Origin: Acidobacteriota bacterium
Lineage (GTDB): Bacteria; Acidobacteriota; Blastocatellia; Pyrinomonadales; Pyrinomonadaceae
Length of the DNA stretch: 45,127 bases
Reading direction: 5' to 3'
Assembly: GCA_003222845.1 (NCBI GenBank)
Contig: QHXG01000001.1
Coordinates: forward strand, 1 to 45,127
The notes beneath the pieces are model-generated. The model saw nothing but the letters and a program-made list of their open reading frames with translations. It had not been told where the DNA came from and searched no databases. The translations under genes and the position numbers were made by a program. How positions within the stretch are numbered: the stretch's first letter is position 1; the number at the start of each line of letters is the position of its first letter. Positions 10,702 to 39,013 of this stretch are shown in pieces.

Positions 10702-10708
10702 TTATGCG

Positions 10709-14442: not shown

Positions 14443-14458
14443 AGTGAGTGGTATAGAG

Positions 14459-15232
14459 ATGATTTACAATTTAAGAACATTGATTGGTTTGATAGCCAGT
14501 ATAGGTACTTTGATTGCTTTCGTATACGCACAGGATAAATTGCCGACGAAACCATTTACTCAATGGTCCCGAAGCGAGGCGGAAGCGATATTGAACAATC
14601 CACCCTGGGTAATCCGGAACGAAGTCCGAATAAAGTTCGATAAAGAGACGCAGGTTGCCGCCGGCTCATATTCCGGTGTCTCCAGCGCCGCCGCCGCCCA
14701 AGCGCAGACTGAAGTGACAAGTCAGGTTCCCGTCGATTTCATTTTTACACTGCGACTGCGTTCGGCTTTACCGGTGCGTCAGGCTTTAGTCAGGCTCAGA
14801 CAGCTACAGAGCGATGTGAAGATGAGCGACCAGGAGCGCGCGTCCTACGAGGCGCGGACCAAGGGGCTGCTCGAGTGTCCCGCCTGCGCGAACAATTACG
14901 TAATCACCTTGAGTTCCAAATCAACGAATAGTCCGGGCGCCGATGCGGTCTACACACTATTCAAAGGAGGCCGGCTGGCGGACCTGCAGCGTTATGTTTA
15001 TCTTGCGAACGAGCGCGGAGAGCGGCGGCAGTTGATCCATTTCGTCCCGCCTAAGGCGTCTGGAGACGAAGCGACATTCTATTTTCCACGCTTGGATGGC
15101 CGAGGGGCGCCGCTGCTGAGTCCTGAGAACAAGCAGCTCGTGATCAACCTGACTGACAATCAGATAAATCCGATTACGAACTTCAGGATAGATGTATCAA
15201 GATTGGTCCTAAACGGCAAAGTTGAATTTTAA
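14459..15232 (+). CDS. Secreted hypothetical protein
   Basis: ATG at 14459 with signal peptide MIYNLRTLIGLIASIGTLIAFVYAQ; contains a CPAC motif; no family recognised. Confidence 0.7.
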   Translation: MIYNLRTLIGLIASIGTLIAFVYAQDKLPTKPFTQWSRSEAEAILNNPPWVIRNEVRIKFDKETQVAAGSYSGVSSAAAAQAQTEVTSQVPVDFIFTLRLRSALPVRQALVRLRQLQSDVKMSDQERASYEARTKGLLECPACANNYVITLSSKSTNSPGADAVYTLFKGGRLADLQRYVYLANERGERRQLIHFVPPKASGDEATFYFPRLDGRGAPLLSPENKQLVINLTDNQINPITNFRIDVSRLVLNGKVEF

Positions 15233-15235
15233 CCT

Positions 15236-15561
15236 CGCGGGCGCCCAAGTGCGCGTTCTAAACGGCGCGCCAATTGTGGGCCGTCAGAACACCGCGATGC
15301 GGCGCGTGCGCGAGCAGCTTCACGACGAGATCGAACAGCACAAGTTCTGGCAATTTCTCTTCTTCAAATATTGGTTCGTGCTCAAGACATATTGCAATGA
15401 GCGCGGCTTGAAGTTGATCGACGACGCATGAATCTGCCCAACAGTACTGAGGGCAATTGGAGTCGGCGATTTGCGAAAGCAACTGGGAGAGAAATTCGCG
15501 GTGAGCGACTCCGTGACTTAACCGATACGTGCGGCCGCACGCCGAAGCGTGAACTTGATAA
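15236..15561 (+). pseudogene. malQ: Relic of malQ-type 4-alpha-glucanotransferase (GH77): internal fragment joined to C-terminal fragment
   Basis: Frame of ORF 15222-15431: LHDEIEQHKFWQFLFFKYWFVLKTYCNERGLKLIDD (cf. MalQ EIEFHKFLQYLFFRQWRALKAYANERGIRIIGD). Frame of ORF 15428: NLPNSTEGNWSRRFAKATGREIRGERLRDLTDTCGR (cf. MalQ C-terminus NLPGTTEGNWxWR...LRxLTxxYGR). Confidence 0.78.
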
Positions 15562-15586
15562 CATCCATATTGGAGCAGGACAAAGA

Positions 15587-17494: not shown

Positions 17495-17566
17495 CGTGTT
17501 CAAGCTAAAGCCTTTCACAGATCAAGTAGCTACTATGCGAGGTAGAATAAATTCTGGATCCGTTTA

Positions 17567-17592
17567 GACTGCAGGCGGACACGTCCGCAGTC
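17567..17592. repeat. Palindrome just upstream of the MFS transporter gene
   Basis: GACTGCAGGCGGAC-AC-GTCCGCAGTC, imperfect dyad with a bulge, 30 bp upstream of the ATG. Confidence 0.6.
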
Positions 17593-17621
17593 GAAACGAT
17601 GGGTGGGGGAGCGATCAGACA

Positions 17622-19055
17622 ATGCAAAAACCACGCTTGAGTTTCTGGCAGATCTGGAACATGAGTTTTGGGTTTCTCGGCATTCAATTCGGCTGGGGAT
17701 TGCAGCTTGCGAACATGAGCGGCATTTACACTTACCTGGGCGCAAGGCCGGAGCAGGTGCCGATTCTGTGGTTAGCTGGTCCGGTCACTGGTTTGCTCGT
17801 GCAGCCAATTATCGGATCGATGAGTGATCGGACATGGAATCGCCTGGGCCGTCGCCGTCCTTACTTTCTCACTGGCGCGATCCTCGCCAGCATTGCGCTT
17901 TTCTTCATGCCGGATTCCTCGGTGTTATGGATGGCCGCGGGACTGCTTTGGATTCTCGACGCCAACATTAACGTGAGCATGGAACCTTTTCGCGCTTTCG
18001 TAGCGGATAAGCTCAGCGTCGACCAGCGAACAGCAGGGTTTGCAATGCAGAGTTTTTTCATCGGCGTTGGTGCAACGCTCGCGAATATTTTGCCTTACAT
18101 CTTCCGGCGTATGCATGTCGATGACCGAGCCGTCAACGCTGGTTCGTCAAGTGCTCCGGTTATTCCGGCCAGCGTTAGCTATTCGTTCAAGATTGGCGCG
18201 GTGACGTTTTTGATTTGCGTGCTCTGGACAGTGATCACTACTAAAGAATTTCCGCCAGAGAACATGGCTGAGTTCGACCGCAAGCGGAAAGAACGTAAAG
18301 GTATAAGCGCGACCGTTTCCGAAGTCGCGTCCGCGCTGCGCGAAATGCCTGTCACGATGAAACAACTGGCGGTCGTGCAGTTTTTCACCTGGCTTGGCCT
18401 CTTCTGTATGTGGATGTTTTTTGGCTTGATGACTTCATATCACGTGTTTGGCGCGACGAGTGAAAAGGATCCGCGCTTTACTGATGGTCAGGCGTGGGGC
18501 GGCAATGCCTTTGCGATCTACTCGATCACTTGTTTCGCGGTGGCCTTCTTGCTGCCGCCTTTGGCCAAGCTCACAAGCAGAAAGATCGTACATGCGATCT
18601 CGCTTCTTTGTGGCGCGATTGGATTGCTCTCAGTTTATTTCATTCATGACAAGAGCATTCTGCTGTTAACGATGGTCGGCGTGGGCGTTGCCTGGGCTTC
18701 GATTCTGGCCATGCCTTACGCGATTCTTTCCGGCGCGATACCGGGAGCGCGGATGGGCGTTTATATGGGTATCTTTAACTTCTTCATCGTCATTCCGGAA
18801 ATAATAGCTTCATTCGCTTTTGGCCCAGTCATTCGCGCAGCCTTCGGATCGGACAATCCCAACTCAGCGATCTATGTGGTGATGGCCGGCGGAGTTTTCC
18901 TGACGCTGGCGGCGATCAGTGTCCTCCTAGTTAAGGATGTCGCGGATAAGAATGTTCCGGAAGCAGCCGTAATCGCGGGCGATGAAGAAGAACTGCTTAC
19001 CCTGCCGGAATCCGCACAGCCGGTGCCGAGTACTGGTTTGATTGATGAAAAGTGA
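17622..19055 (+). CDS. MFS sugar transporter (SLC45/sucrose-maltose symporter-like)
   Basis: [36 protein letters not shown]...[26 protein letters not shown]; multiple TM segments; position among amylase genes. Confidence 0.88.
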
Positions 19056-19091
19056 ATTAAATCGCAGTAGAATGAGTCTCTCAGAAACTCG

Positions 19092-19517
19092 ATGAGCACC
19101 GCAGACATCCGGTGGATTCAACGATTCAACCACTTCAACAAGGCGCTTTCGCAATTGAGCGAAGCGGCGGCGCTGGCCAAAGAGCGTCCGCTGTCGAAAC
19201 TCGAAGAACAGGGCTTGATTCAGGCGTTCGAATTTACCCATGAACTAGCCTGGAACACGCTGAAGGATTTTCTCGAAGGCCGCGGCGTCCAAAATTTATA
19301 TGGCTCAAAGGACGTCACACGCGCTGCCTTCACGGCCGAATTAATTGAAAACGGCCAGGCCTGGATGGACATGATCAGCAGCCGGAATCTGACCTCTCAC
19401 GCGTATGATGAAGCGACCGCGGCCCAGATCGTTTCCGCCATTCGCAACACTTACGTCGCAGAGTTCGAGGTCCTCCGTCTCAAGCTGGAACAGCTAGGAC
19501 AGGAGGCGCAGCAATGA
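19092..19517 (+). CDS. Nucleotidyltransferase substrate-binding protein (HI0074/HepT-like HEPN domain)
   Basis: EEQGLIQAFEFTHELAWNTLKDFLEGRG and HEPN R-X4-H motif in SSRNLTSHAYDE. Confidence 0.9.
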   Translation: MSTADIRWIQRFNHFNKALSQLSEAAALAKERPLSKLEEQGLIQAFEFTHELAWNTLKDFLEGRGVQNLYGSKDVTRAAFTAELIENGQAWMDMISSRNLTSHAYDEATAAQIVSAIRNTYVAEFEVLRLKLEQLGQEAQQ

Positions 19518-19831
19518 AGCACGGGCTGCCAGATAGTGCCGTCCAGAAAATTTGCGGCGTCCTGAATCGTTACCCGGAGGTAAAACAAGCGATTCTCTAT
19601 GGCTCGCGCGCCAAAGGGAATTTTAAGAACGGCTCCGACATTGACCTGGCGTTACGCGGGGGCGCGGATTTGACAATGAACGTCGTCTACAAAATCCTGG
19701 ATGATCTCGATGACCTTCTCCTGCCATACACAATAGACCTGTCCATCTTGAACGGCATTGGTGAACCTGAACTAATAGAGCATATTCAACGCGTGGGCAC
19801 GGTCTTTTGCGACAAACAGACCAGGCAGTAG
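19514..19831 (+). CDS. Minimal nucleotidyltransferase (MntA-like MNT domain)
   Basis: GSRAKGNFKNGSDIDLAL (GS-X10-DxD); overlaps the upstream HEPN gene by ATGA. Confidence 0.9.
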   Translation: MKHGLPDSAVQKICGVLNRYPEVKQAILYGSRAKGNFKNGSDIDLALRGGADLTMNVVYKILDDLDDLLLPYTIDLSILNGIGEPELIEHIQRVGTVFCDKQTRQ

Positions 19832-19872
19832 TGAATCGCGACTCAGCTAAACAGCCAATCTTTCGGAAGATC

Positions 19873-21303
19873 ATGAATTCAAGAATCTGTCATTCCACCC
19901 TTTGGATCTTAACGTTGATATGCGTAACGTTTTGCTTTTGCATTGGAATTTCGTGGTCTCAAAAGTCGGCGTTGCCTGACTTTTCAAAAGAGTCCGCGCG
20001 GCCGATTCACGATTGGGTGCGCGACGGCGTCATCTACGAAATCTATCCGCGTGACTTTTCGGCGGCAGGAAATTTCAACGGTATCACTGCTCAACTCGAT
20101 CGTTTGAAAGATCTTGGGGTAACGATTCTCTGGCTGATGCCAATTCATCCCATCGGTCAGGAGAAGAAGAAGGGAACTATCGGCAGTCCTTACGCCGTCC
20201 GCGATTACTATGCGATCAATCCTGATTACGGTACCAAAGATGATTTGAAGCGGCTGATTGCCGAAGCGCACAAGCGCCGGATGAGAGTCATCATCGACAT
20301 CGTTGCGAACCATACTTCGTGGGACAGCGTGATGATGAAGTGGCCGGACTTTTACGAACATGATGCAACTGGGAAAATTACTTATCCACATGACTGGTTC
20401 GATGTCGCCAAACTGAATTACGCGAATCCTAAATTGCGCGAGTACATGACGGACATGCTCAAGTATTGGATTCGCGAATACGACCTCGACGGGTTTCGCT
20501 GCGACGTTGCGGAAGATGTGCCAACTGAATTTTGGGACCATGCACGCGCCGAGCTGGACAAAATCAAGCCCGACATTTTTATGCTGGCCGAAGGTCACAA
20601 GCCCGATCTGGAAGTCAAAGCTTTTGAGCTTGATTACTCGTGGCCGCTGCACAACGCATTGACTGACGCGTTGCAAGGCCGCGGCCGCGCGTCCGACTTG
20701 CGGGCCGCGCAGGAAGAAGAGATAAGGCGCTGGCCGCGTGGCGCGTTGCACATGCGCTTCTCGGACAATCACGACGAGCGTCGGGCGATTGCGCGATTCG
20801 GCGAGCCGGCAGCGCTCGCAGCCTCGGCGTTGATGTTTACGCTTGACGGGGTGCCGTTGATTTACAATGGAATGGAAGTCGGGGACACAACCGAGTCTGG
20901 CGCGCCGGCATTGTTTGAGAAGCTGCCGGTTTTCTGGCCGACTGCCGAGCGCAGGCCGGAATTTCCGCGCTTCTATAGACAAATGAGTGCGTTGCGAAAA
21001 GCGAACGATGCGTTGCGACGCGGTTCGCTTGAGTGGTTGCGTAATTCCGACGAGGCTCGCGTCGCCACCTATCTTCGACGCAGCAACGATGAAGAGGTTT
21101 TGATCGCGATCAATTTTTCCAATCGGCCTTTTAATGGATCGATCGAGATTGCCAACGGCGCAGGCTTCACCGACATCACTCCCGATGTCGGTCCGCCATT
21201 GCCGCCGGATGGCCCTGCGCCTGAACGCATGGCGCGCGCTCGTATCAATGCGTTGCCAACTTTATTTCTGGATGCATGGGGCTATCGTATTTTTCATCGG
21301 TGA
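19873..21303 (+). CDS. Secreted GH13 alpha-amylase family enzyme
   Basis: Signal peptide MNSRICHSTLWILTLICVTFCFCIGISWS; VIYEIYPRDFSAAG, IDIVANHTSWDS, DGFRCDVAEDVP, FMLAEG, FSDNHDERR. The ORF opens at 19807, overlapping the MNT gene. Confidence 0.92.
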   Translation: MNSRICHSTLWILTLICVTFCFCIGISWSQKSALPDFSKESARPIHDWVRDGVIYEIYPRDFSAAGNFNGITAQLDRLKDLGVTILWLMPIHPIGQEKKKGTIGSPYAVRDYYAINPDYGTKDDLKRLIAEAHKRRMRVIIDIVANHTSWDSVMMKWPDFYEHDATGKITYPHDWFDVAKLNYANPKLREYMTDMLKYWIREYDLDGFRCDVAEDVPTEFWDHARAELDKIKPDIFMLAEGHKPDLEVKAFELDYSWPLHNALTDALQGRGRASDLRAAQEEEIRRWPRGALHMRFSDNHDERRAIARFGEPAALAASALMFTLDGVPLIYNGMEVGDTTESGAPALFEKLPVFWPTAERRPEFPRFYRQMSALRKANDALRRGSLEWLRNSDEARVATYLRRSNDEEVLIAINFSNRPFNGSIEIANGAGFTDITPDVGPPLPPDGPAPERMARARINALPTLFLDAWGYRIFHR

Positions 21304-25507: not shown

Positions 25508-28102
25508 ATGAGGAAACGAAAGCAGAGGTATCTTGTCGGGATCATCATTGTCCTGCTGGCCCTGGGCGGCTTCATGATCTATCAGTGGTGGCCCAGGGGG
25601 CCACAGCCTGGCACCGTGCTCGATGAAGCACGGCAGGCGAATCGGCCGGCGAGCTCCTTTCCCGCTGCGGACGAAGACTACTTTCACGACATGGACCAAA
25701 ACCATGACGGTGTAATCACCTTGACGCCCGAGGAAGTCAAAGGGCGGAACACCTGGGTGGTCTGGACCGGCGGCAACGATCGGCTCTGGGACAACCTCAG
25801 TGTCGCGAGTTTCGGGGCACTTGATCTGGTCAAAACGATTTCGTCTTATCCAAATCCCGTCTCCTCAGACCCCAACGACAAGATGAAGTTTAGCCGTGAT
25901 AATCGATGGACCTATTTGGGGCTGGTGAACGAACCTTGCTTTGAAAAAGTGCCGGGCCCTGATCCCGAACGCTTCGGATTGTGGGTCGACAAAAGGAGGC
26001 CCGACTGTCCTCCCGATCCTTTTGAGAATGAATCGAAGTATCCCGGCGTAAAAGTCGGTGCTCGCGGCACGACCTTCGCCGACGGTAAGAGGCTGCCGGT
26101 CGGATCTTTCTATGGTTACGCCACCGGAATTGTCGGGTTAAGGTTGTTTCCCAATCCCGATTTTGATGAAGCAGCGGAAAAGAGATGGGATCCCGAGAGG
26201 TATTACAACGATCCGAACTACTATCAACAGAAAGATCTGGTCCGGCCATTTCGCGTCGGCATGTCATGTGCATTCTGCCACGTTGGACCAAATCCAATGA
26301 AGCCACCGCAGGATTCGGAAAACCCGAAGTGGGAGAATCTCTCGAACAACGTGGGCGCGCAGTACTTTTGGATCGACCGCATCTTCGATTGGAACGCCGA
26401 CCCGTCGAATTACATCTTTCAGATGTTCCATAGCTCGCGCCCGGGGACGCTGGATACATCGCTGGTCTCGACGGACAACATCAATAACCCGCGCACGATG
26501 AACGCTATCTATAATCTGTGGCCGCGTCTGGATCAGGCAACACGCTTCGGCAGGGAGACGTTGGCTCCGCCCGGCACCGGCAGCGGCAATAACAAACAAC
26601 TTAATGACTACGTGCCGCCGAATTCACCCCTGGCCCAATTCTTCACGCCGCCGTCAACCGTGTTGTCGCCGCGCGTGCTCAAGGACGCTGCCGATTCGGT
26701 CGGTGCGTTGGGGGCGCTCAATCGCGTCTACCTTAACATCGGTCTCTTTAGCGAAGAATGGCTCTTGCATTTCAGGCCGCTAATCGGCGGAAAGAAAATC
26801 TCGCCAATTGAAATAGCGGTAGCGCGCAAGAACTCCGGTTACTGGGAAGCGACGGAGGCGCAAACTCCGAACATGGCGCTCTTCTTTCTGCGGACCACCG
26901 ACCCGCATAAATTGAAAGACGCACCCGGCGGCGACGCGTATCTAACCAAGAATACTGCCCAGCTCGAACGAGGTAAAACCGTCTTTGCCGAAAATTGCGC
27001 GCGCTGTCATTCGAGCAAATTGCCCAGGCCGGATCAGCAAAAAAAGATTTTTGACGCAATCGGCTGCGCGGGCCCTGATTATCTCCAATGCTGGGGCGAA
27101 TACTGGGCCTGGACCAAGACCGACGAATTCAAGTCAAAAATGCGCGCAATCGTCAGCGCGCCGGATTTTCTCGACCGCAATTATCTCTCGGCCGAGTTCC
27201 GCGTTCCGGTGACGCTCCTGCAAACAAACGCGTGCAGCCCGTTGGCGACAAACGCGCTTCGGGACAACATCTGGGACAACTTTTCTTCCGAGACTTATAA
27301 GAATTTACCTTCAGTAGGTACGATCAAAGTCTACGATCCAGTCACCGGCGAGGCGAAAGATTACGCGATGCGCGGTGGCGGTCGAGGTTACACGCGCCCG
27401 GCGTCGCTGATTAGTCTTTGGTCCACCGCGCCGTTTCTTTTGAACAACTCAGTCGGGCGTTGTTTGAATCCAACCGCGCCGAATGACGACTACAATCCCG
27501 CGCCGTCGGTCGAGAAGCGTTTGGCTGCGTTTCAAGACGGTATCGAGAAAATGCTCTGGCCCGCAAAGCGAGAAAAGGATTCCGTCTTAGGCGATAAAGT
27601 ACCGGGTGTTATCGATCGCACGACGCAGATTTCGTACATCAGCATCCCAGCCGGTTATTTACCTGAAAGCCTGCAGCAGGGCTGGCTGTCCTGGCTGTTT
27701 CCGCGTTTGTTCCCGCGTTTGTTTGACGAGGACAACGGACTGCGACTTGGTCCAATTCCGCGTGGGGCGCCGGTCAGTCTGATCGCGAATCTGATGGTCC
27801 GGCCCGAAGAGATGGGCTTCTGGGCCCGCCTTGAGCACGATAAAGAGTTGAAGAGGGTAATCTTTGGAATCAGAGGCGATCTGATGAAGCTGGGCAAACA
27901 ACGTCCGAACGAGAGCGAAGACGATTACAACAACCGCGCTCGAGAAGTTTTCAAGCCGCTCGCATCGCAATTGATGACCTTGAGTAAATGTCCGGATTAT
28001 ATCGTCAACCGCGGGCACTACTTCGGGACGGGCTATGACAATGAAGCGGCGCTTAGCGATGAGGATAAGAAAGCGCTGATCGAGTTCCTGAAAACCTTCT
28101 AA
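25508..28102 (+). CDS. Membrane-anchored di-haem c-type cytochrome (possibly RoxA/di-haem peroxidase-related) with N-terminal EF-hand-like motif
   Basis: N-terminal TM (YLVGIIIVLLALGGFMIYQWW); two CXXCH sites (CAFCH near 26269, CARCH near 26998); DMDQNHDGVITLTPEE at residues 61-76. The RoxA relation is tentative. Confidence 0.8.
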   Translation: MRKRKQRYLVGIIIVLLALGGFMIYQWWPRGPQPGTVLDEARQANRPASSFPAADEDYFHDMDQNHDGVITLTPEEVKGRNTWVVWTGGNDRLWDNLSVASFGALDLVKTISSYPNPVSSDPNDKMKFSRDNRWTYLGLVNEPCFEKVPGPDPERFGLWVDKRRPDCPPDPFENESKYPGVKVGARGTTFADGKRLPVGSFYGYATGIVGLRLFPNPDFDEAAEKRWDPERYYNDPNYYQQKDLVRPFRVGMSCAFCHVGPNPMKPPQDSENPKWENLSNNVGAQYFWIDRIFDWNADPSNYIFQMFHSSRPGTLDTSLVSTDNINNPRTMNAIYNLWPRLDQATRFGRETLAPPGTGSGNNKQLNDYVPPNSPLAQFFTPPSTVLSPRVLKDAADSVGALGALNRVYLNIGLFSEEWLLHFRPLIGGKKISPIEIAVARKNSGYWEATEAQTPNMALFFLRTTDPHKLKDAPGGDAYLTKNTAQLERGKTVFAENCARCHSSKLPRPDQQKKIFDAIGCAGPDYLQCWGEYWAWTKTDEFKSKMRAIVSAPDFLDRNYLSAEFRVPVTLLQTNACSPLATNALRDNIWDNFSSETYKNLPSVGTIKVYDPVTGEAKDYAMRGGGRGYTRPASLISLWSTAPFLLNNSVGRCLNPTAPNDDYNPAPSVEKRLAAFQDGIEKMLWPAKREKDSVLGDKVPGVIDRTTQISYISIPAGYLPESLQQGWLSWLFPRLFPRLFDEDNGLRLGPIPRGAPVSLIANLMVRPEEMGFWARLEHDKELKRVIFGIRGDLMKLGKQRPNESEDDYNNRAREVFKPLASQLMTLSKCPDYIVNRGHYFGTGYDNEAALSDEDKKALIEFLKTF

Positions 28103-28154
28103 TTACCGAGATTCTTCGGAAGAGTCTTGACTAAGCTACGGAAAGGGGACCTTC

Positions 28155-29723
28155 ATGGCCGACCACAACGATCCCAACGCGGTCAATTCGATCTTCTCGG
28201 ACATCGATGTCAGCGCCGCTGACCTTTACGATCTCTTCGGATTTCCGAGCGCCGACACAAATGGCGGCGAAAAGGTCGTAATTGCGTTGACGTTCGCTTC
28301 GGTACCCGAGCCCGGGCTGCTGGACCACGACATGCTTTACCGAATTCAGATCTGCGCCGAGCCGCGCGTCGGACCGCCCGCGCAGGAAGACCACAGCTTG
28401 AAAGCCTTGCTGCGTTACTTCGACGCCCTCAAAGACAAATACCTTGGCCCACTGCGGCCTGCCGAAATTCGCGTTACTACCGATCAATCAAATCGAGCTA
28501 CGATCAGATTTATTGATTTTCCCGGCGGCAGCTTCTCGACGGAAGTTGAGGTCGATAAGGTTCTGACCATCAATACGCCCGATGGCTTTGCGATCAAAAC
28601 ATTCATCGGCGGCCGCGACGATGCTTTCTTCAACGACCTGACCGGATTCTTTCGCTCGATAAATTACGCGCCGCAGTTTTATCACGTGCCCCACACCATG
28701 ACGGAAGCGCGCGAGCTGAAAATTCCGAAGACTTTGCTCGAGCTGGAGGGCAACGATCTTTTTAACTTTGACGCAGCCGATCCTGAATGGGGATATCACG
28801 GTAAGAAACGCAACCTGCCGCCCGGTCCGCTGGCCTGGAACGGCGACAAGTTCCGCAAAGACGAGAATGGCAATTATCGTTTTGTTTACAGCGGCGTTGA
28901 CTGCCAGGCGGGGAAGAACGTCAACGCAATCATTCTGGAAATTCCTCTGGCATTCATTACAAAGTCGCCGTCGGAGCACAGAGTTGTCAACACGTGGGGC
29001 GAAAGCTGGGTGCTGAAGGCCGCCAACAAAGTCGAGACCATACCGGATCACCCGTTCTGGCTGGAACATCCGTTAGTTTTGCTTGACGCTTTCAAGCTCG
29101 ACGCGGAGTTGAAGAAGTATAAGCTGGTCGACACTGATGGGCAGCCATTCGCAGACGCGGCTTTGAGCGAGCGCGAAGACAACCGCCAACTCGGTGCGAA
29201 TAACTTCTGGCTGGCGCCGCATTTCATCAAGCGGCTGGCCCACCTCGGCTGGGGTTTTGGACCATCGATCAGCGCGTTGGGTTTGCAGACCTCGTTCGAT
29301 CACGACAACTCGCCGGTTTCGGTGCACAAGACCTACACTCTGGTAGCCGAAGCATTTTCCCGCGTCAGGAAGACACTTTTTCAGCGACTGAATATGCCCG
29401 ACGATTCCTGGAACCCAAAAGGCTTGAACATTCCTTTGCGACGGCCCATCGAGATCTTCGTGCCGAATGTCTGTGCCATCGACATGGACACGACCGGCAC
29501 CTGGCCCTTCGGACGAAGACCAGAAGATCAGGTCGCGACGCGCTTCCTCTCGATGTTTCTCGACATGGAGGCTGAGTTTAACGGCAAGAAATATCATCTC
29601 GAATTGCTGAACGATCAGTCGTTGTGGGATGCCGCGCCGATTGAGCCGAAAACGCCGCCCAATCCCTTGAAGAATGATAAGGAATTTCTTCCTGACTTTC
29701 CGTACTTGGCGGAACCCTGGTGA
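28155..29723 (+). CDS. DUF4331 family protein
   Basis: DVSAADLYDLFGFPSADTNGGEKVVIALTFASVPEPG...DHDMLYRIQI and CQAGKNVNAIILEIPLAFI pattern. Confidence 0.82.
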   Translation: MADHNDPNAVNSIFSDIDVSAADLYDLFGFPSADTNGGEKVVIALTFASVPEPGLLDHDMLYRIQICAEPRVGPPAQEDHSLKALLRYFDALKDKYLGPLRPAEIRVTTDQSNRATIRFIDFPGGSFSTEVEVDKVLTINTPDGFAIKTFIGGRDDAFFNDLTGFFRSINYAPQFYHVPHTMTEARELKIPKTLLELEGNDLFNFDAADPEWGYHGKKRNLPPGPLAWNGDKFRKDENGNYRFVYSGVDCQAGKNVNAIILEIPLAFITKSPSEHRVVNTWGESWVLKAANKVETIPDHPFWLEHPLVLLDAFKLDAELKKYKLVDTDGQPFADAALSEREDNRQLGANNFWLAPHFIKRLAHLGWGFGPSISALGLQTSFDHDNSPVSVHKTYTLVAEAFSRVRKTLFQRLNMPDDSWNPKGLNIPLRRPIEIFVPNVCAIDMDTTGTWPFGRRPEDQVATRFLSMFLDMEAEFNGKKYHLELLNDQSLWDAAPIEPKTPPNPLKNDKEFLPDFPYLAEPW

Positions 29724-29771
29724 TAGACCGGTCTTCAAAACGTTCGTGTCATTTGTAATTGAGGCTGGAAG

Positions 29772-30947
29772 ATGGACCAACTAACTGACTTTGAAGTCGA
29801 GCTGGACAGGATCGACAAAGCTATCGCCGACATCCCTGACCCACTGGCGTGTCCGATGGACGGCGAAAGAGCGACAAAGTTCGTCTATCTGGTTTATCAG
29901 CGCGCCTCGCTCACGGGAAACTTTCGCGAGCTCGAAGATGCCGAGGCGGCCCTCAACACGGCCATTCAGCATCTCGGTCCAGCCGGCGATCTTTATTTTC
30001 TTAAGGCCAATATTGATTTCAAGTTTCATCGGCTTGCGGCTGTGAGACTCGATCTCGAGACGGGCCGGGATCTCCGAGACAGCCCGCAAGGCCGAGCGTT
30101 GCTCTGTGACCTCGGTTTTCAAGAGGGCCGGTACGACGACGCCAGAAAGGGATATGAAGCGCTCATCGACGAAGAGCGAACCTGGGACAATCTGGCTCGC
30201 CTGGGATATCTCAAGTGGAAATTGGGCGACGCTGCGGGCGCCGACCAGTTGTATCTCGAAGCCGAAGATGAACTCACGGCGAAGGAAATGCGGCACTACG
30301 CCTGGGTCGAGCTGCAGAGAGGAGTTTTGAAACTGCGGAGTGGTCGCTACGAAGATGCGTGGACACATTATGATCGCGCCGGCCGTGCTTACTCTGGCCA
30401 TTGGCTTGTTGACGATCACAAAGCTGAATGCTTAGGAGCACAAGGGAAGTTTGCGGAAGCCGCCGTGCTTTACGAACAATGCATCGAGCGCGTGCCGCGG
30501 CCTGAATTTCAACAAGCGCTCGGTGAACTCTACCAGCTTCTCGGCCAGCCTGATCGCGCCGAGTCGTGGAATCAAAAAGCCCTGGCTGCTTATCTGGAAG
30601 CAGCCGAGCGCGGCGGCGTTCACTACTATCATCATCTGGTTGATTTCTATGCGGACGTGCGGGAGGACGGCCCGGAGGCGGTGAAGTGGGCCCGCAAGGA
30701 CATCGAGTTGCGTCGAAACTTCGCAACGCTCGCGGCGCTGGCGTGGGCCTTATATCGCGCGGGCGAGTATGCGGCGGCCCGCGACATGATGGATCAGGCG
30801 CTCGACTCGGGTGCAGCGGATGCGCATCTGTTTTTTCAGGCGGCGACGATTCACCAGGCGGCGCCAACCAACGGCCAGGGCGAGCAGTATTTGCGTATGG
30901 CTGTCGAGCTAAACCCGCATTACCGAAGTTTCCACGTGCACCGATGA
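29772..30947 (+). CDS. TPR-repeat protein
   Basis: Repeating helical units (e.g. AAVLYEQCIERVPRPEFQQALGELYQLLGQPDRAESWNQKALAAYLEA). Confidence 0.85.
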   Translation: MDQLTDFEVELDRIDKAIADIPDPLACPMDGERATKFVYLVYQRASLTGNFRELEDAEAALNTAIQHLGPAGDLYFLKANIDFKFHRLAAVRLDLETGRDLRDSPQGRALLCDLGFQEGRYDDARKGYEALIDEERTWDNLARLGYLKWKLGDAAGADQLYLEAEDELTAKEMRHYAWVELQRGVLKLRSGRYEDAWTHYDRAGRAYSGHWLVDDHKAECLGAQGKFAEAAVLYEQCIERVPRPEFQQALGELYQLLGQPDRAESWNQKALAAYLEAAERGGVHYYHHLVDFYADVREDGPEAVKWARKDIELRRNFATLAALAWALYRAGEYAAARDMMDQALDSGAADAHLFFQAATIHQAAPTNGQGEQYLRMAVELNPHYRSFHVHR

Positions 30948-30953
30948 AGATCT

Positions 30954-32846
30954 ATGAGCGATCCAGAATTCGATTACATAGTAGTCGGCTCGGGTGCAGG
31001 CGGTGGTCCACTTGCCGCGCGCCTCGCGGAAGCTAAAGAAGGATACAAGGTCCTGCTTTTAGAGGCCGGTGGTGAGGAAGAGCCCTGGACTTATCAGGTG
31101 CCCGTGTTCCACGGCAGTGCTACCGAGGACGAAGAACTGCGCCTCGACCACTATGTGCGGCACTACGAAGACGAGGCGCGTCAGGAGTTGGATCCAAAGT
31201 ATCTTGTGGAGCGAAACGCAGGGCGGCATGGTGTTTACTATCCCCGCGCTCGCACGCTCGGCGGTTGCACTGCGCATTACGCGATGATCATTATCCGCCC
31301 ACACGATAGTGATTGGCGGGCTATCCAGGAGGCTACTGGTGATGCGAGTTGGGCGCCGCGTGAAATGGACAAGTACTTTGCGCGCGTCGAACGCTGGCAA
31401 CAGACTTCCGCCGCTTCCTCCGGCCACGGCAAGGATGGTTGGTTGCCGACCCGCTTTGCGGACGTGATCGAGCTGGCGCGCGAAGCAATCACCCATTTTG
31501 ATCCCGCGATCGGCGAGATCGTCGCCGAAGCCGTGGAGGCCAATCACAAGTTTATGCCGATCCATGTTTGGAATCGGCCTTACTTTCCGATCACGGCGCA
31601 CCTCGAAGCGAAGTTTGATCCGAATGATCTTCGATCTCTCAAACGCCACGGCTTCGGCGCGATCGCGGTGCCGATGGCAATTGACGAAAAGGGGCGTCGC
31701 GCCGGCACGCGCGAACGCATCAACGCCGCCAAGGCGACCGGGCAACTCGAGGTGCGCCTGCATTGCCACGTCACCGAACTCGTGTTCGATGAAAACGACC
31801 CGCTACGCGTCGTCGGCGTTCGCTACCTTCCGGGTGAACGTCTCTATCGCGCCGATCGCGATCCAGATCGGTTTGGACAAGTGACCGGTCCGGCTCAGGA
31901 GGTGCGGGCGAAACGCGAGGTCATCATCTCGGCCGGAGCGTACATCACGCCGCAGTTGCTGATGCTCTCCGGCATCGGACCGCGAGCAGAATTGGAGCGG
32001 CCCGAAATCGATATTCCGGTGCGGGCCGATCTTCCCGGGGTTGGCAAGAATCTGCAAGACCGCTACGAGGTTGGGGTCGTCGCGCAAACCAGGAAGCCAT
32101 TTTCGCTGCTGAAGGTGGCGACGTTTGGCGGGCCAGTACCGAGCGGGACGGACGGCGACGAGTTCTTTGAAGAGTGGCGCAACCACGGCAAAGGGCTCTA
32201 CGCCACGAACGGCGCGGTCATCGGCTTTACGGCAAAGTCCAGTGTCGCGGAGGACGACGAGCCTGATCTCTTCATCTTCGGCGTCCCCGGCGCATTCGTC
32301 GGCTACTACACCGGCTGGTCCATTGACGCAGTCAAACCGCCTCACGACACGTGGACCTGGCTGTTGCTCAAAGCGCACGCGCGTTTTCGCGGCCAGGTCA
32401 CGCTGACTTCAAACAATCCGCTTGACCCGCCGCACGTCGATTTCAAGTATTTCGAGCGCGACCAAAGCGGCAAGCTCACGCGTGAGGCCGAACTGGATCT
32501 CCAGGCGATGCGCGATGGCATCGGCATCATCAACAAGCTGCTAAGAGGATCGACACACGAATTGAAATTGCATCCGAGAATAATGGAAAACGTCGACCTG
32601 GAAACAGAAGCAGGGGTAGATAAATTCGTCGAGGATCGCGCTTGGGGCCACCACGCTTCCTGCACCTGCAAGATTGGCGGTGACAATGACAAGGAGGCCG
32701 TGCTCGATTCTGCTTTTCGCGTGCGCGGCGTGACGGGACTCAGGGTAGTTGACGCATCGGTGTTCCCGAGAATTCCTGGATTCTTCGTGGTCATGCCGAT
32801 CTATATGATCGCTGAGAAAGCAGCGGACGTTATCCTTCGTGAATGA
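30954..32846 (+). CDS. GMC family FAD-dependent oxidoreductase
   Basis: FDYIVVGSGAGGGPLAARLAE...VLLLEAGG; YITPQLLMLSGIGP; C-terminal HHASCTCKIG...LRVVDASVFPRIPGFFVVMPIYMIAEKAADVI. Confidence 0.95.
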   Translation: MSDPEFDYIVVGSGAGGGPLAARLAEAKEGYKVLLLEAGGEEEPWTYQVPVFHGSATEDEELRLDHYVRHYEDEARQELDPKYLVERNAGRHGVYYPRARTLGGCTAHYAMIIIRPHDSDWRAIQEATGDASWAPREMDKYFARVERWQQTSAASSGHGKDGWLPTRFADVIELAREAITHFDPAIGEIVAEAVEANHKFMPIHVWNRPYFPITAHLEAKFDPNDLRSLKRHGFGAIAVPMAIDEKGRRAGTRERINAAKATGQLEVRLHCHVTELVFDENDPLRVVGVRYLPGERLYRADRDPDRFGQVTGPAQEVRAKREVIISAGAYITPQLLMLSGIGPRAELERPEIDIPVRADLPGVGKNLQDRYEVGVVAQTRKPFSLLKVATFGGPVPSGTDGDEFFEEWRNHGKGLYATNGAVIGFTAKSSVAEDDEPDLFIFGVPGAFVGYYTGWSIDAVKPPHDTWTWLLLKAHARFRGQVTLTSNNPLDPPHVDFKYFERDQSGKLTREAELDLQAMRDGIGIINKLLRGSTHELKLHPRIMENVDLETEAGVDKFVEDRAWGHHASCTCKIGGDNDKEAVLDSAFRVRGVTGLRVVDASVFPRIPGFFVVMPIYMIAEKAADVILRE

Positions 32847-32888
32847 GCGCAAGGTGCGTTGATTGATGTAGCCGGCGGACGGATGTTT

Positions 32889-32942
32889 GGTTCAAACTTT
32901 AGTTTGGCGTTTCGTGGAAGAAGCAACCTAAAGGTTGAACTC
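32889..32942. repeat. Short inverted repeat (REP-like hairpin) between GMC and protease genes
   Basis: GTTCAAACTTTAGTTTG ... CAACCTAAAGGTTGAAC, two mismatches across 17 bp. Confidence 0.65.
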
Positions 32943-32980
32943 TATACACCGTGGGAAGCAATAGATGAATGGAGGCTATC

Positions 32981-35900
32981 ATGGCAAGCTCGAATCGTAT
33001 CCTGGTAAAGCTCAGGCCAACGGTCGGGTTGGCGGCTGCTGCACCGCGCGCGAATCTGCGACCGCTTCACGCAAGCGCTCCACAGACACAAGCGTTTGGA
33101 CTCTCGTCCGAGCCGTCGTGGTTCCTGGCGGATTTGCCCGATACTGGCGGACCGAATCCCTGGGACTTGGCCCATGCGCGAGTGGCGGATCAGCTAGGCA
33201 TTGACGAGTCCGCGGTGCTATTCGCTGAGCCCGATTTGGATCAGCGTTTCGATGATGGTAGTGAGGCGACTCCCATCGGCGGCGTTGGTCAGGCGGCAGC
33301 GGCCGCGGCGGGAAGTCACACTCCGCAGGATTCAGGTCACAACAAAGCGGTCGGCCCATCGGTCGCTTGGCACTTGGAAGATTCTTTTTCGCAACTCAAA
33401 GGGGCGCGCAACGCAGTTCAATTTTCGAATCCGCTCACGCGCATCGCGCACATCGACACGGGTTACGATCGCAGGCACGTGGCGAAGCCGGATCACATCG
33501 TGCTCGAGCATAGCTTCGTTGAAGGTGATCCCGATCCTAACAGGGCAGAGTCTCGGGCTGCACTTGGATTATTACCGCAGAACCTTGATCACGGCACCGG
33601 CACGATTGGAATTCTGGCGGGCCGTGCCGTTCCGCTAGGTCTAGGTGAGTTTTCAGGTGGAGCACCGGATGCCGAAATTGTGACGCTGCGGATCGCTGAC
33701 TCGGTCATCCTTTTCAAAACAAGCGCGTTTGCTCAGGCGCTGCAATTTGCCATCGACAACAACTGCGACGTCGTGTCGATCAGCATGGGTGGTCTGCCTT
33801 CGAAAGCGTGGAGCGAGCTGGTGAATAAGGCATACGAGGCCGGCATCTGCATCTGCGCCGCCGCGGGCAACAACATTGGCGGATTTCCCACGCACCACGT
33901 CGTTTACCCAGCGCGATACCATCGCACGATCGCGGTGTGCGGCGTCATGGCAAATGGGCAACCTTATTACAACATTACTGATCGGCAGCTCGAGGGAAGT
34001 TGGGGGCCTGATAGTTCGATGACGGCGGCGATTGCCGCCTACACGCCAAATATTCCATGGCCTGTTTTCCGTCAAAGCCCTGAGATCCGTGAGAACGGTG
34101 AAGGCACATCGGCAGCTACTCCGCAGGTGGCAGCAGCCGTCGCGCTTTGGATCGAGAAGCACAAAGATTTTCTGAAGCGCGATTGGCGCCGCGTTGAAGC
34201 TGTGCGCAACGCGCTCTTCTCTTCTGCCAAAGGCGCGGACCGGCAGCATTTCGGCAACGGCATCCTGCAAGCCAACGCGGCGTTGGCAATCGCGCCAAAT
34301 CTCAATCTGCCGCAGACGCCGCCCGATAACGATTCGTTCTCGTTCCTGCGCGTGCTCACCGGCTTGGGTGTCGCGGACGCGCCGCCGCGCGAGCATATGT
34401 TCAATCTGGAACTCACGCAGCTCTATTTAACGAGTCCTGAATTGCAGAAGATCGTGCCGGACCCGGAGAGAGAAGTGAAGGACGCTGACGTGCGCAAATT
34501 CATGGAAGCCGTGGTCCATGACGACAAAGCGTCGCTGGCGCTACGAAAACAGATCGCAAATCGATATTCACTGGTTGTCGGGGCTGCGGTTCAGGGGGCG
34601 CCGAAAGAAGTCGTTGCGCCACCGCAAGCGGCCTGCAATCCGAAGGTCAGTATGTCGAATCCGCCCTTCCGCCGCATCCGCACTTACGCTGTGGATCCGA
34701 GTTTGTCGACCCAACTCGCGACTGCCGGGATCAATGAAGTCGCGCTGAAAGTACGATGGGAAAAACTCGAGCCCGGACCGAAAGGCGAATACCTCGAAGT
34801 CGCGGACACCGATGCTACGGGCGTCACTTACGATCCCGTCAACCTGGATGAGCCCTGGCTGCTGGCGCAGGATGGCTGTCCCCCTACCGAAGGTAATCCA
34901 TGGTTTCATCAACAGATGGTTTACGCAGTTGCCATGAATACGATTCAGCATTTTGAGCGGTCGTTGGGCCGGCCAGTCCTTTGGCGGCCGCAAATCAATC
35001 CCAACAACGAGTTTGACGATAGTCAGTTCGTGCGCCGCTTGAGCGTGCGCCCGCACGCTCTGCGTCAGGCAAATGCTTTTTACAGCCCGCAAGACATCGC
35101 GTTGTTGTTTGGCTACTTTGAGGCGGGGCCGGACGATCCCGGCGATCATGTTCCCGGCAGCACGGTTTACGCGTGTCTGTCGCATGACATCGTGGCCCAC
35201 GAGACGACGCACGCGATACTCGATGGCATGCACCGACGTTTCAACGAACCGACCAACCCTGACGCGTTGGCCTTGCACGAAGGGTTCGCGGATATCGTGG
35301 CGCTGATGCAGCATTTCACTATCGCTGAAATTCTGGAAAACGAAATTAGGAGGACCCGCGGTGACCTCGAGGCAGAATCAATTCTCGGCAGTTTGGCGGT
35401 GCAGTTTGGCCATGCGACCGGAGAGCGCGGGGGTCTGCGCGACGCAATCGGCAAGTTTGATGAGAACGGCAAGTGGACGCGGCTCAAACCCGATCCGGCG
35501 GATTACAAAAACGTGATGCCGCCGCACTCTCGCGGCGCGATTCTGGTGGCTGCGGTATTCGACGCCTTCCTTGCGATCTATGAGACCCGCACGGCGGACC
35601 TGCTGCGGATTTACACGGGCGGTAGCAGCGTCTTGCCCGAGGGAGCGATTCATCCCGACTTGGTCCGTCGTTTAGCTGCCGAGGCGGTGAAATCCGCGAC
35701 GCACATTTTGAACATGTGCATCCGCGCCCTGGACTATATTCCGCCGGTTGATATTACTTTTGGCGAATATTTGCGCGGCCTGATCACGGCTGATTCCGAT
35801 CTGGTTGAGGACGATCGTTACAACTATCGCGTGGCGTTCGTCGAGGCCTTTCGCCGGCGCGGGATTTACCCGCTGGACCTGCCGACGCTGTCCGTCGATA

Positions 35901-36487
35901 CGCTGCGATGGCAGGGAGCCGATCTCTTAACCATGACTCGGAAGCATCCAAAGATGGCCAAGGAAATGAAGCTCATCATCGAGCAGTTGAAGAGTTATGC
36001 GGATGCGTGCTTGTACATTTCAGATCGCGAGATCCTATTTAAGGAAACCAGAAAACAGCGGGCCCTGCTCCATAAAACTCTGAAGGATGTTTTTGCGGCG
36101 CTGCCGCGAGCAGCGGCCGCTGAATTTGGCTCGATGCTGGGCGTTGACCCAAAGCTTGATTTCGAGGTTCACGAACTCCGGCGTTCGTTGCGCGTAGGTC
36201 CAGACGGCCAACACATTCCGCAAATCATCGTCGCGTTGACGCAGGCGACTACGATTGACATCGATTCGACGCCCCACACTTTTCGGGGCGGTTCAACGCT
36301 GGTCGTCGATCTCTCAAAGCCTGGAGTTGATTACGCGATCAGAAAGGACATCAAGAGCGAGAAGCGCCAGGAGCGAACCGCGGCCTTTGTCGGCAACGCG
36401 CTGCGCGACCCGCTGCAAGCACTTCTGATCCGTAAGAACCGGGAGCCCTTTGCCGCGTTACACGCGTTTGCGGATGTGGCTTCGTGA
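32981..36487 (+). CDS. Dual-protease protein: N-terminal S8 subtilisin domain plus HETTH gluzincin-like metalloprotease domain
   Basis: S8 triad IAHIDTGYD, DHGTGTIGILAG, GEGTSAATPQVAAAVALW; then DIVAHETTHAILDGMHRRF...ALHEGFADIVALM. ORF opens at ATG 32969; ATG 32981 sits 5 nt after GGAGG. Confidence 0.88.
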   Translation: MASSNRILVKLRPTVGLAAAAPRANLRPLHASAPQTQAFGLSSEPSWFLADLPDTGGPNPWDLAHARVADQLGIDESAVLFAEPDLDQRFDDGSEATPIGGVGQAAAAAAGSHTPQDSGHNKAVGPSVAWHLEDSFSQLKGARNAVQFSNPLTRIAHIDTGYDRRHVAKPDHIVLEHSFVEGDPDPNRAESRAALGLLPQNLDHGTGTIGILAGRAVPLGLGEFSGGAPDAEIVTLRIADSVILFKTSAFAQALQFAIDNNCDVVSISMGGLPSKAWSELVNKAYEAGICICAAAGNNIGGFPTHHVVYPARYHRTIAVCGVMANGQPYYNITDRQLEGSWGPDSSMTAAIAAYTPNIPWPVFRQSPEIRENGEGTSAATPQVAAAVALWIEKHKDFLKRDWRRVEAVRNALFSSAKGADRQHFGNGILQANAALAIAPNLNLPQTPPDNDSFSFLRVLTGLGVADAPPREHMFNLELTQLYLTSPELQKIVPDPEREVKDADVRKFMEAVVHDDKASLALRKQIANRYSLVVGAAVQGAPKEVVAPPQAACNPKVSMSNPPFRRIRTYAVDPSLSTQLATAGINEVALKVRWEKLEPGPKGEYLEVADTDATGVTYDPVNLDEPWLLAQDGCPPTEGNPWFHQQMVYAVAMNTIQHFERSLGRPVLWRPQINPNNEFDDSQFVRRLSVRPHALRQANAFYSPQDIALLFGYFEAGPDDPGDHVPGSTVYACLSHDIVAHETTHAILDGMHRRFNEPTNPDALALHEGFADIVALMQHFTIAEILENEIRRTRGDLEAESILGSLAVQFGHATGERGGLRDAIGKFDENGKWTRLKPDPADYKNVMPPHSRGAILVAAVFDAFLAIYETRTADLLRIYTGGSSVLPEGAIHPDLVRRLAAEAVKSATHILNMCIRALDYIPPVDITFGEYLRGLITADSDLVEDDRYNYRVAFVEAFRRRGIYPLDLPTLSVDTLRWQGADLLTMTRKHPKMAKEMKLIIEQLKSYADACLYISDREILFKETRKQRALLHKTLKDVFAALPRAAAAEFGSMLGVDPKLDFEVHELRRSLRVGPDGQHIPQIIVALTQATTIDIDSTPHTFRGGSTLVVDLSKPGVDYAIRKDIKSEKRQERTAAFVGNALRDPLQALLIRKNREPFAALHAFADVAS

Positions 36488-36744: not shown

Positions 36745-37323
36745 GTGGCCGAAAGCGAAACCGAGACACCGCGAACTTCGGATTACGAACTGGCGCAGCG
36801 AGCCGCTGAGGGCGACCGGACGGCCTTCGAGGAGCTTTACCAGCGTCATAATCGCCGCGTATATTCGCTGTGTTTGCGCATGACGCAAAACGTTACTGAA
36901 GCCGAGGACCTGGCGCAGGAAGTCTTTATCCAACTCTTCCGGAAGATAGGCAGCTTCCGTGGCGAATCGGCATTTACGACCTGGCTGCATCGCTTGACGG
37001 TCAATCAGGTGCTCATGCATTTTCGGAAGCGCGGCGTGCGGCTCGAGCAGACGACCGAAGAGGGCGAGGTACCCGTCCAAATCGTCAAGGGGACGGAAAA
37101 CCCGAACGCCATGCCGGTGGTGGATCGCATTGCGCTCGATAAGGCTATAGGGCAGTTGCCGCCCGGTTATCGCTCGGTTTTCACCCTTCACGACATCGAG
37201 GGGCACGAGCATGAGGAGATAGCCCGAATGCTGGGCGTCTCCGTCGGCACATCAAAGTCGCAATTACACAAGGCCAGAATGAAATTGCGTGGATTGCTCA
37301 GGCAACAGAATAAGCCGAAGTAG
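36745..37323 (+). CDS. ECF-type RNA polymerase sigma factor
   Basis: [64 protein letters not shown] (region 2) and [34 protein letters not shown] (region 4); GTG start. Confidence 0.95.
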
Positions 37324-37504
37324 CAACCAAGCAGGTGGCCGCTTTTCAGCCCGACACACACGAAAACGGGCCACTTTGACATCGCAGCGGCCAATCGCTG
37401 CCGATTAGAGAGAACGCAGTCTCCCCTTTGTTGCTTTGAGACCGCGAGAGTCGCGTAGTCCGAGGCTATACGAAAAGATGCGCGACGCATCAGAGGTTAC
37501 GACA

Positions 37505-38221
37505 ATGAACTGCGAGAAATATCAGGATTTGCTAAGCGACTTTATTGACGGGTCGCTGGCTTCTCAAGATCATCACAGCATCGAGGCGCATCTGAGCGCT
37601 TGTGGCGTGTGCGCCGAAGTGCGCGGCGACCTGGATGCGATAGTTACTTACTGTCATGAACATCGCGGCGAGTACGACGCCGTTCCGAATGAGCGCGCGC
37701 TGTGGCTTCGGATCAGCAATCTCATCGAAGCGGGCGACCTGGAACTGGCGACCGACTTGCGGACAGAAATTCCGCAGAATGCCGGCTGGTGGTTTCGCTT
37801 GATGAATCGAAGTTGGCAAATGTCTCTTCCGCAGCTTGCTGCTTCCATGATTGCCGTTGCGATAATCGTCTCGGTGGCTACGATGATTGGCCTGCGTCGC
37901 TTTGGCTCTGGTGGTGAGAGCGCCGGGCTTCGTTCGTCAGGTGTGACGACGGTCGCCGCGAACGGCCTACCTTTGGCGGAACGCTATCGCCAGCAGCAGC
38001 AGACGATCGATTACTGGAATCAACGAGTTGAGTTGAATAAGGCGCGCTGGAATCCTCAAATGCGCGAAACGTTTGAGCGCAACTTGAACGTGATCGATGC
38101 GGCGGTCAACGATTCCCTAAGCCACTTGAATCAGAATCCGCACGATGAAGTCTCGGAAGAGGTACTCAACGCCGCCCTGAACGACAAGGTTGAATTGTTA
38201 AGAGAATTCGCAGAACTGTAG
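37505..38221 (+). CDS. Anti-sigma factor with N-terminal zinc-finger (ZAS)
   Basis: MNCEKYQDLLSDFIDGSLASQDHHSIEAHLSACGVCAEV (HxxxCxxC) plus one TM segment (LAASMIAVAIIVSVATMIGL); adjacent to the ECF sigma gene. Confidence 0.9.
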   Translation: MNCEKYQDLLSDFIDGSLASQDHHSIEAHLSACGVCAEVRGDLDAIVTYCHEHRGEYDAVPNERALWLRISNLIEAGDLELATDLRTEIPQNAGWWFRLMNRSWQMSLPQLAASMIAVAIIVSVATMIGLRRFGSGGESAGLRSSGVTTVAANGLPLAERYRQQQQTIDYWNQRVELNKARWNPQMRETFERNLNVIDAAVNDSLSHLNQNPHDEVSEEVLNAALNDKVELLREFAEL

Positions 38222-38248
38222 ATTGAAAGGCCCTAAATTTAGTATCCG

Positions 38249-39013
38249 ATGAGTTTCTTTTTGCCCGTCACCAGGAACCGTGTTAGCAGTTTCATCACGT
38301 TGCTCCCATTTTTCCTCGTTCTGATCGTCTCGACAAGCGCGTCTGCTCAGCAGCGTGTGTCGCGCCAGTTTCCCGCCGGCAAGAACGTACGGCTGGAGTT
38401 GAAAAACCTGTCCGGTACGATCACGGTCGAGTCCTGGGCACGCGATGAGATCAAGATCACTGCTACGATGGAAGCTCCTGCCGTTCATTTTAATCCACGG
38501 CAGACAGATCTGGGTTTGATCATCGACATCGTTGCCGATAATCGAGATCGCCGAGATGTCGGCGATGTGAATTTCAAAGTTCAGGTTCCCATAAGGTCGT
38601 CGTTGGATTTGGAGACTCGCAGCGGCCAGATCACTGTTAGCAATGTTCAAGGCGAGCTGCTCCGCGCGCACGTCTCGACTTCCGGCGACATCACGCTCTC
38701 CGGAATCAGCGCCGCGCGAGTGTTCGCCTCGAACACGACCGGAAACATCTATTTCGACGGCGACTTTGCCTCCGGAGGAACCTATGAGTTCAAGTCCGGC
38801 CGCGGCACGATCACGCTGCGTCTGCCTGCGAATTGCGGATTTCATCTGGTGGCCACGGCGCCTGCTGCTGAGAAAATTAAGATGGGTGAATTCTGGCATA
38901 GTGGGTTGAAGAAGATGGGCGAAGGTCGCAGGATTATTGGCGATGTCGGCGACGGTCGCGCATCAGTTACGATCATGAATTACCAGGGCGACATCCACTT
39001 CCTCCGCCGCTAG
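38249..39013 (+). CDS. DUF4097-family beta-helix repeat protein, secreted
   Basis: VRLELKNLSGTITVESWARDEIKITATME...LETRSGQITVSNVQGELLRAHVSTSGDITLSGI. Confidence 0.85.
   Translation: MSFFLPVTRNRVSSFITLLPFFLVLIVSTSASAQQRVSRQFPAGKNVRLELKNLSGTITVESWARDEIKITATMEAPAVHFNPRQTDLGLIIDIVADNRDRRDVGDVNFKVQVPIRSSLDLETRSGQITVSNVQGELLRAHVSTSGDITLSGISAARVFASNTTGNIYFDGDFASGGTYEFKSGRGTITLRLPANCGFHLVATAPAAEKIKMGEFWHSGLKKMGEGRRIIGDVGDGRASVTIMNYQGDIHFLRR

Follow-up and report, generated by a model that had tools for sequence, protein, structure and literature searches.

What holds together a run of five large genes that encode two redox enzymes, one with haem and one with FAD, a DUF4331 protein, a TPR protein and a double protease? 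The run lies in the window analysed here, a stretch of 45,127 nucleotides from an uncultured Acidobacteriota bacterium of soil type, of the Pyrinomonadaceae (contig QHXG01000001.1, assembly GCA_003222845.1; 6.05 Mb, 851 contigs). An earlier note on this DNA had placed five co-directional genes at 25508-36487 (+), with gaps of 52, 48, 6 and about 130 bp, and had suggested that they may form an undescribed oxidative degradation or modification system. The five open reading frames (ORFs) are all open and co-directional at these positions. The first three gaps measure 52, 48 and 6 bp. The fourth depends on the start chosen for the protease: it is 122 bp for the first ATG (32969) and 134 bp for the second (32981), which directly follows GGAGG and is probably the better start. 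The domain calls hold: two CxxCH sites and an anchor in the 864-amino-acid (aa) di-haem cytochrome (hereafter CYT) and, by Pfam, DUF4331, TPR, the N- and C-terminal GMC domains and peptidase S8. We tentatively favour the explanation that the cluster represents one form of a CYT-GMC oxidation cassette that is widespread and undescribed; it is probably a single operon and would serve the periplasmic oxidation of lipids of the oxylipin type.

The association of CYT with GMC is conserved well beyond this genome. Of 145 related genomes, nine have CYT, eight the GMC subfamily and four the DUF4331 subtype. When the window's own genome is excluded, six of the 144 relatives possess both CYT and the GMC subfamily, two CYT only, one GMC only and 135 neither (Fisher 2e-8); the corresponding value for co-occurrence of the DUF4331 subtype with CYT is 1e-4. 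The single GMC-only genome (G003) carries its GMC on a 3.7-kb contig that begins inside a TPR gene. A wide scan of 84,980 species genomes returned at least 408 CYT relatives, and neighbourhoods were counted in the best 80, which span Acidobacteriota, Pseudomonadota, Nitrospirota, Myxococcota and Binatota; the window CYT falls among sequences from Pyrinomonadaceae (Acidobacteriota). In 67 of these 80 loci a GMC of the subfamily found in the window (>150 bits) is present near CYT. It follows CYT directly, downstream and on its strand, in 46 loci, and in 36 of these the distance is 0-100 bp. The counts are not independent, the sample being weighted towards the nearest relatives and containing about nine loci from Variovorax. 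Five apparent CYT/GMC overlaps are probably artefacts of ORF starts. For rough comparison, with a handful of GMC genes in every 5 Mb, chance alone would place about 0.02 of them in a stretch of 22 kb. That the genes are unrelated and came together by chance in this genome is hardly credible: the optional nature of the protease and DUF4331 would suit such a grouping, but linkage conserved across phyla in shuffled order, together with the co-occurrence statistics, already contradicts it for CYT, GMC, DUF4331 and TPR, and it is still possible for the protease.

Since the gene company is kept while the order is reshuffled, shared function seems a better explanation than common descent of one segment. 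The order is CYT-DUF4331-TPR-GMC in the window, DUF4331-TPR-CYT-GMC in G071 and DUF4331-TPR-CYT-GMC-patatin-small protein-catalase-like protein-protease in G005, while G083 shows DUF4331-TPR-CYT on contigs that end at CYT and begin at GMC. The arrangement CYT-GMC...DUF4331-TPR occurs in Bryobacterales (L127), Thalassomonas (L150), Methylococcaceae (L154), G192 and G429, so that DUF4331-CYT neighbourhoods have at least three gene orders. All six genomes matched in a search with the DUF4331 protein carry CYT within a few kb on the same contig, with TPR, and the TPR gene accompanies the DUF4331 gene in every DUF4331-carrying cluster not cut by a contig end. In the best 80 loci, DUF4331 is seen in five and TPR in four, while the S8/HExxH protease comes right after GMC in two (L089, L091). 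The cultured acidobacterial strain KBS 96 has CYT, GMC and the protease in that order; full-length protease relatives in G039 and G057 adjoin a different GMC. The co-occurrence of CYT, DUF4331 and protease that the earlier note suggested checking was accordingly found for DUF4331 but is looser for the protease. Its proposal of an undescribed oxidative system is partly supported: the lack of conservation that would have spoken against it was not observed, the neighbourhood being kept, with shuffled order, across Acidobacteriota, Pseudomonadota, Nitrospirota and Myxococcota, but the core is only CYT and GMC and the resemblance to RoxA is distant. DUF4331 and TPR come as a pair that is optional. 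The protease is more loosely associated: it is adjacent in several acidobacterial loci but, as noted, also stands next to a different GMC.

A lipid substrate is best supported by the repeated replacement, in these neighbourhoods, of one type of lipase by another that is not homologous to it. A patatin-like phospholipase of about 900 aa is present in 18 CYT loci, mostly directly downstream, a short patatin in four (L072, L074, L084 and L127), a patatin-DUF3376 in one (L080) and a class-3 lipase in two (L081, L082). On plasmid pRL11 of Rhizobium johnstonii 3841 (L193:7035-19387), seven genes, none more than 35 bp from the next, encode an old yellow enzyme, a RoxA-like cytochrome, a small membrane protein, a second RoxA-like cytochrome, CYT (RL_RS32250), GMC (RL_RS32245) and patatin (RL_RS32240), mostly annotated as hypothetical; the run spans RL_RS32270-RL_RS32240. 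In Sinorhizobium fredii the run is the same as far as GMC, after which comes a protein annotated only as hypothetical. A tight run of this kind also stands at L194; pRL110443 turned out to be thiM and is not a cluster gene. RoxA-like di-haem cytochromes stand in tandem in ten of the best 80 loci.

How closely is CYT itself related to such cytochromes? Across 81 sequences its sole invariant histidines are His258, His501 and His837, a trio that matches the ligand set of RoxA, two CxxCH and a C-terminal distal His (His195/His394/His641; PMC10837239). By analogy with RoxA His641, His837 is a candidate for the second axial ligand of haem 2. In hhalign comparisons with the neighbouring RoxA-like cytochromes (E = 4e-8 overall, 8e-11 for the C-terminal part), only the two haem sites and the C-terminal motif GH..GT..L..DK.AL.EFLKTF align reliably, and no dependable alignment was obtained beyond them for equivalents of the distal Phe317/Trp302. 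Despite these motifs, CYT falls outside the described families, because family cut-offs are failed, the His of the MauG motif is lost and no significant PDB match was obtained; its identification as RoxA, RoxB or FadCcp was rejected on the first two grounds. In NCBIfam, the window CYT reaches 13.1 bits for RoxB (cut-off 900), with no match listed for RoxA and RoxC, and 43 bits for the di-haem cytochrome c peroxidase family NF040606 (cut-off 150), which is exceeded by CYT2 and CYT3, the neighbours of CYT in L155. The MauG motif PYxHNGSVP is missing from the window CYT, where PFLLNNSVG is found instead, and among eight aligned CYT sequences its His is retained only in the divergent L080-L082 group.

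Structural comparison with RoxA/RoxB and di-haem peroxidases, which the earlier note had proposed, gave no significant match. PDB searches with the single CYT sequence and with an eight-sequence profile gave only short cytochrome-c matches. An AlphaFold model built from 81 sequences, the protein being modelled without haem, has a predicted local distance difference test score (pLDDT) of 87.3 and a predicted template modelling score (pTM) of 0.91. Compared with the PDB by Foldseek, which can miss folds of low regularity, it matched nothing at E<=0.001, solved RoxA included; the only meaningful names in the list were MauG complexes at chance level (E 6-8, probability <=0.02), and a viral structure library gave nothing significant. 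A model built earlier on 20 sequences had a poor pLDDT of 69, which leaves the fold search made from it meaningless. CYT is therefore related to the di-haem oxygenase/peroxidase class either distantly or in a highly elaborated form.

Those MauG complexes, though not significant as matches, bring to mind protein modification of the MauG/MbnH kind, in which CYT would oxidise side chains of DUF4331, with TPR as scaffold and the protease maturing DUF4331. That one type of cluster gives a di-haem enzyme DUF4331+TPR as a fixed neighbour would be in agreement with this, but DUF4331 and protease are missing from most CYT clusters, the MauG-motif His is lost and the window DUF4331 protein has no export signal, and we regard such a modification as very improbable. 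The DUF4331 protein itself scores 46.3 bits against a Pfam cut-off of 27 (PF14224), only as a partial profile match; its subtype is divergent, at 29% to the canonical copy elsewhere in the same genome, and occurs only with CYT in the genomes searched. The gammaproteobacterial relatives (L150, L154) have a signal peptide that ends just before ADHNDPN, the very point at which the acidobacterial proteins start with Met; the latter have therefore either lost export or use another route. In G000:C788 (L083:9202-12177), the genome's canonical, exported DUF4331 directly precedes a TPR gene with no CYT, and DUF4331 and TPR may be a general pair. The literature searched, from which most subscription journals were absent so that silence is not proof, held no paper naming DUF4331, for which the cluster gives a context-based clue.

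The double protease proposed by the earlier note stands for its S8 domain (92 bits in Pfam; Asp, His and Ser motifs conserved) and for the metal-ligand motif HETTHA + HE[GA]FADIVAL, which each of the nine aligned sequences has kept. The family of this second half was not assigned, however, because it matched no Pfam family, although the gluzincin HExxH and the downstream Glu are present. Libraries of defence systems and phage proteins gave only generic subtilase/protease matches. The HExxH half also stands alone beside an MBL-fold protein, in this genome too, and S8/HExxH proteases have a second type of GMC, an MBL-fold protein or both as neighbours in L085:8063-13504, L086:2277-8814, L192:3951-7018 and L076:2168-5733.

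The window GMC passes the Pfam cut-offs for GMC_oxred_N (76.6 bits) and GMC_oxred_C (94.8 bits), domains shared with choline dehydrogenase/oxidase and fatty acid photodecarboxylase. Its catalytic His is retained, His567 aligning with His466 of choline oxidase, but the position of Asn510 is taken by Phe611, a Phe that is invariant in all 20 cluster GMCs aligned (choline oxidase residues counted on the printed alignment). The canonical alcohol/choline site of a catalytic His with a second His or Asn is hence lacking, and the betA score, 200 bits, is far below the cut-off of 732. This residue change makes it plausible that the chemistry is not a simple oxidation of alcohols or that the substrate is strongly hydrophobic. 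A GMC relative in Nitrospira (L103) has a lipoprotein/Tat-like leader, while the window GMC lacks an export signal. The R. leguminosarum GmcA (PMC7105596) was considered as the cluster GMC; the passages found there do not give the position of gmcA, and no link is claimed.

Peroxidases among the neighbours, which as additional redox partners also suit the lipid-oxidising cassette, raise two further possibilities. DyP peroxidase is present in 25 of the 80 loci (PDB match 8re3, E 8e-60) and a catalase-like protein in 23, the sole PDB hit of the latter, coral allene oxide synthase (E 0.16), not being significant. In an oxidase-peroxidase system for aromatic or recalcitrant material, alcohol oxidation by GMC would supply H2O2 to CYT, and to DyP, as peroxidases, while catalase-like proteins limit damage. 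The presence of true DyP peroxidases and of catalase-like proteins in some 25 of the 80 clusters, the NCBIfam naming of the RoxA-like partners as di-haem cytochrome c peroxidases and the alcohol-oxidising GMCs that are close sequence relatives of the cluster GMC are all consistent with it. We nevertheless find it unlikely: Phe replaces the catalytic Asn/His of choline oxidase-type enzymes, cluster GMCs mostly lack export signals, and patatins and lipases are unexpected for aromatic polymers. Alternatively, the cluster may defend against oxidised lipids or peroxides by reducing or clearing lipid hydroperoxides, with the protease removing damaged protein. Patatin, DyP, catalase-like and old yellow enzyme neighbours would suit repair, as would the patchy distribution of accessory genes, but two to four haem/FAD enzymes per cluster are much for detoxification alone and no stress regulator was seen inside the cluster, which makes defence a decidedly weak candidate. 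Two other proteins were noticed in these surroundings. A 435-aa membrane protein in 26 loci (e.g. L079:7376-8683, L109:7107-8402), nearly always beside the DyP gene, had no Pfam, NCBIfam or significant PDB match. Another protein, very divergent and possibly catalase-like, shares about 20% identity with the catalase-like protein above and recurs beside GMC/CYT in Acidobacteriota (L072:5296-6366; L127:14500-15600; L188:13266-14447; L190:9451-10497).

Returning to the lipid-oxidising cassette, its conservation, gene linkage, reshuffled modules, haem motifs and altered GMC site are shown by the data above, and for the localisation of CYT, its electron path and its substrate we infer the following. 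CYT would be held in the periplasm by its N-terminal anchor, where a bis-histidine haem 2 (His501/His837) may pass electrons and haem 1 (His258), with an open side, may activate O2 or a (hydro)peroxide. The enzyme would then oxygenate, or peroxidise, an unsaturated substrate of lipid type, which could be released by patatin or class-3 lipases, and the GMC flavoprotein may oxidise the hydroxylated product or exchange electrons with CYT. DUF4331+TPR and the two-domain protease would be optional accessories, perhaps for substrate handling or turnover of oxidised protein. Several points weigh against this proposal. No substrate is known for any cluster member; no lipase adjoins the window cluster, the lipase link coming from neighbours in other genomes; and without a significant fold match for CYT a RoxA-like active site is not established. 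An export signal could be recognised in none of the window's GMC, DUF4331 and protease, whereas haem attachment requires CYT to be in the periplasm; direct electron exchange between CYT and GMC is therefore doubtful in the window, and the lipid may cross the membrane instead of electrons. Finally, co-transcription is something we infer from gene spacing, on which the operon structure rests because promoter and terminator scans did no better than on shuffled sequence. GC content and third-position GC (GC3) are uniform across the five genes.

A broader and rather less probable version of this proposal would be a widespread, lipoxygenase-independent bacterial oxylipin pathway. CYT would represent a new di-haem oxygenase family acting with a GMC of unusual site, lipases, RoxA-like enzymes, old yellow enzyme and catalase-like proteins; it would make lipid-derived signals or degrade lipids in soil and plant-associated bacteria including Rhizobium, and the DUF4331/TPR/protease version of the window would be an acidobacterial specialisation. 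If lipids are indeed the substrate, many bacteria of soil or associated with plants possess a periplasmic pathway of lipid oxidation whose genes are at present annotated only as 'hypothetical protein' or 'cytochrome c', and di-haem oxygenase chemistry extends beyond rubber and oleate. The gene set is concrete and testable in a tractable, sequenced rhizobium.

Table 1. Positions of the cluster genes and of their motifs in the window
Feature	Position	Strand	Remarks
CYT	25508..28102	+	864 aa, membrane-anchored di-haem c-type cytochrome, core enzyme candidate
CYT N-terminal transmembrane anchor	25532..25591	+	about residues 9-28; lipobox-like GC here in several relatives
CYT haem 1 site CAFCH	26267..26281	+	residues 254-258; CxxCH invariant in 81 sequences
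CYT haem 2 site CARCH	26996..27010	+	residues 497-501; CxxCH invariant in 81 sequences
CYT APFLLNNSVG	27428..27457	+	residues 641-650; place of MauG/RoxA motif PYxHNGSVP, His to Leu
CYT NRGHYFGT	28007..28030	+	residues 834-841; invariant His837
DUF4331-subtype protein	28155..29723	+	522 aa, no signal peptide in window copy
TPR protein	29772..30947	+	391 aa; partner of DUF4331 gene
GMC-family FAD oxidoreductase	30954..32846	+	630 aa, core partner of CYT
GMC His567	32652..32654	+	aligned with catalytic His466 of choline oxidase
GMC Phe611	32784..32786	+	aligned with catalytic Asn510 of choline oxidase
S8 subtilase fused to second domain with gluzincin-type HExxH	32969..36487	+	probable start 32981
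Protease peptidase S8 domain	33443..34261	+	residues 159-431; Asp/His/Ser motifs conserved
Protease HETTH zinc-site motif	35198..35212	+	residues 744-748; HEGFADIVAL shortly 3' (Glu771)

The genes on both sides look unrelated to the cluster. Upstream, FG-GAP/ASPIC proteins, a ROK regulator, a TonB-type barrel, TPR proteins, MFS and alpha-amylases (1656-21303) resemble a malto-oligosaccharide utilisation locus, and a DUF481 gene is also found on this side. Directly 3' of the cluster (36745-39013) are a sigma-70-family (ECF-like) factor, a zinc-finger anti-sigma and a DUF4097 protein.

No description of a CYT-GMC cluster was found in the literature searched, which has the same gap in subscription journals and the same limit as proof, and two known systems invite comparison. 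With the rubber oxygenases RoxA, RoxB and RoxC (PMC10837239, PMC6797691), CYT shares its di-haem nature, the three-His ligand set and a similar C-terminal motif, but it lacks PYxHNGSVP, scores below the family cut-offs and has no significant structural match. The other system is P. aeruginosa PA2077/PA2078 (FadCcp), the oleate 10S-dioxygenase and 7,10-diol synthase, reported as a two-gene diol synthase operon (PMC4496055, PMC5155153). Common to both are large (>60 kDa), exported di-haem cytochromes in which a C-terminal axial His accompanies two CxxCH, organisation in an operon and lipid substrates, if the proposal for CYT holds; CYT differs in being about 200 residues longer, in lacking the MauG-motif His and in its pairing with GMC. 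The tandem RoxA-like proteins beside CYT may be enzymes of the FadCcp kind, which CYT itself is not. By analogy, the P. aeruginosa oleate di-haem dioxygenase pair is the nearest functional model, and the cassette would work in a manner like, yet not identical to, that of this fatty-acid-oxidising pair.

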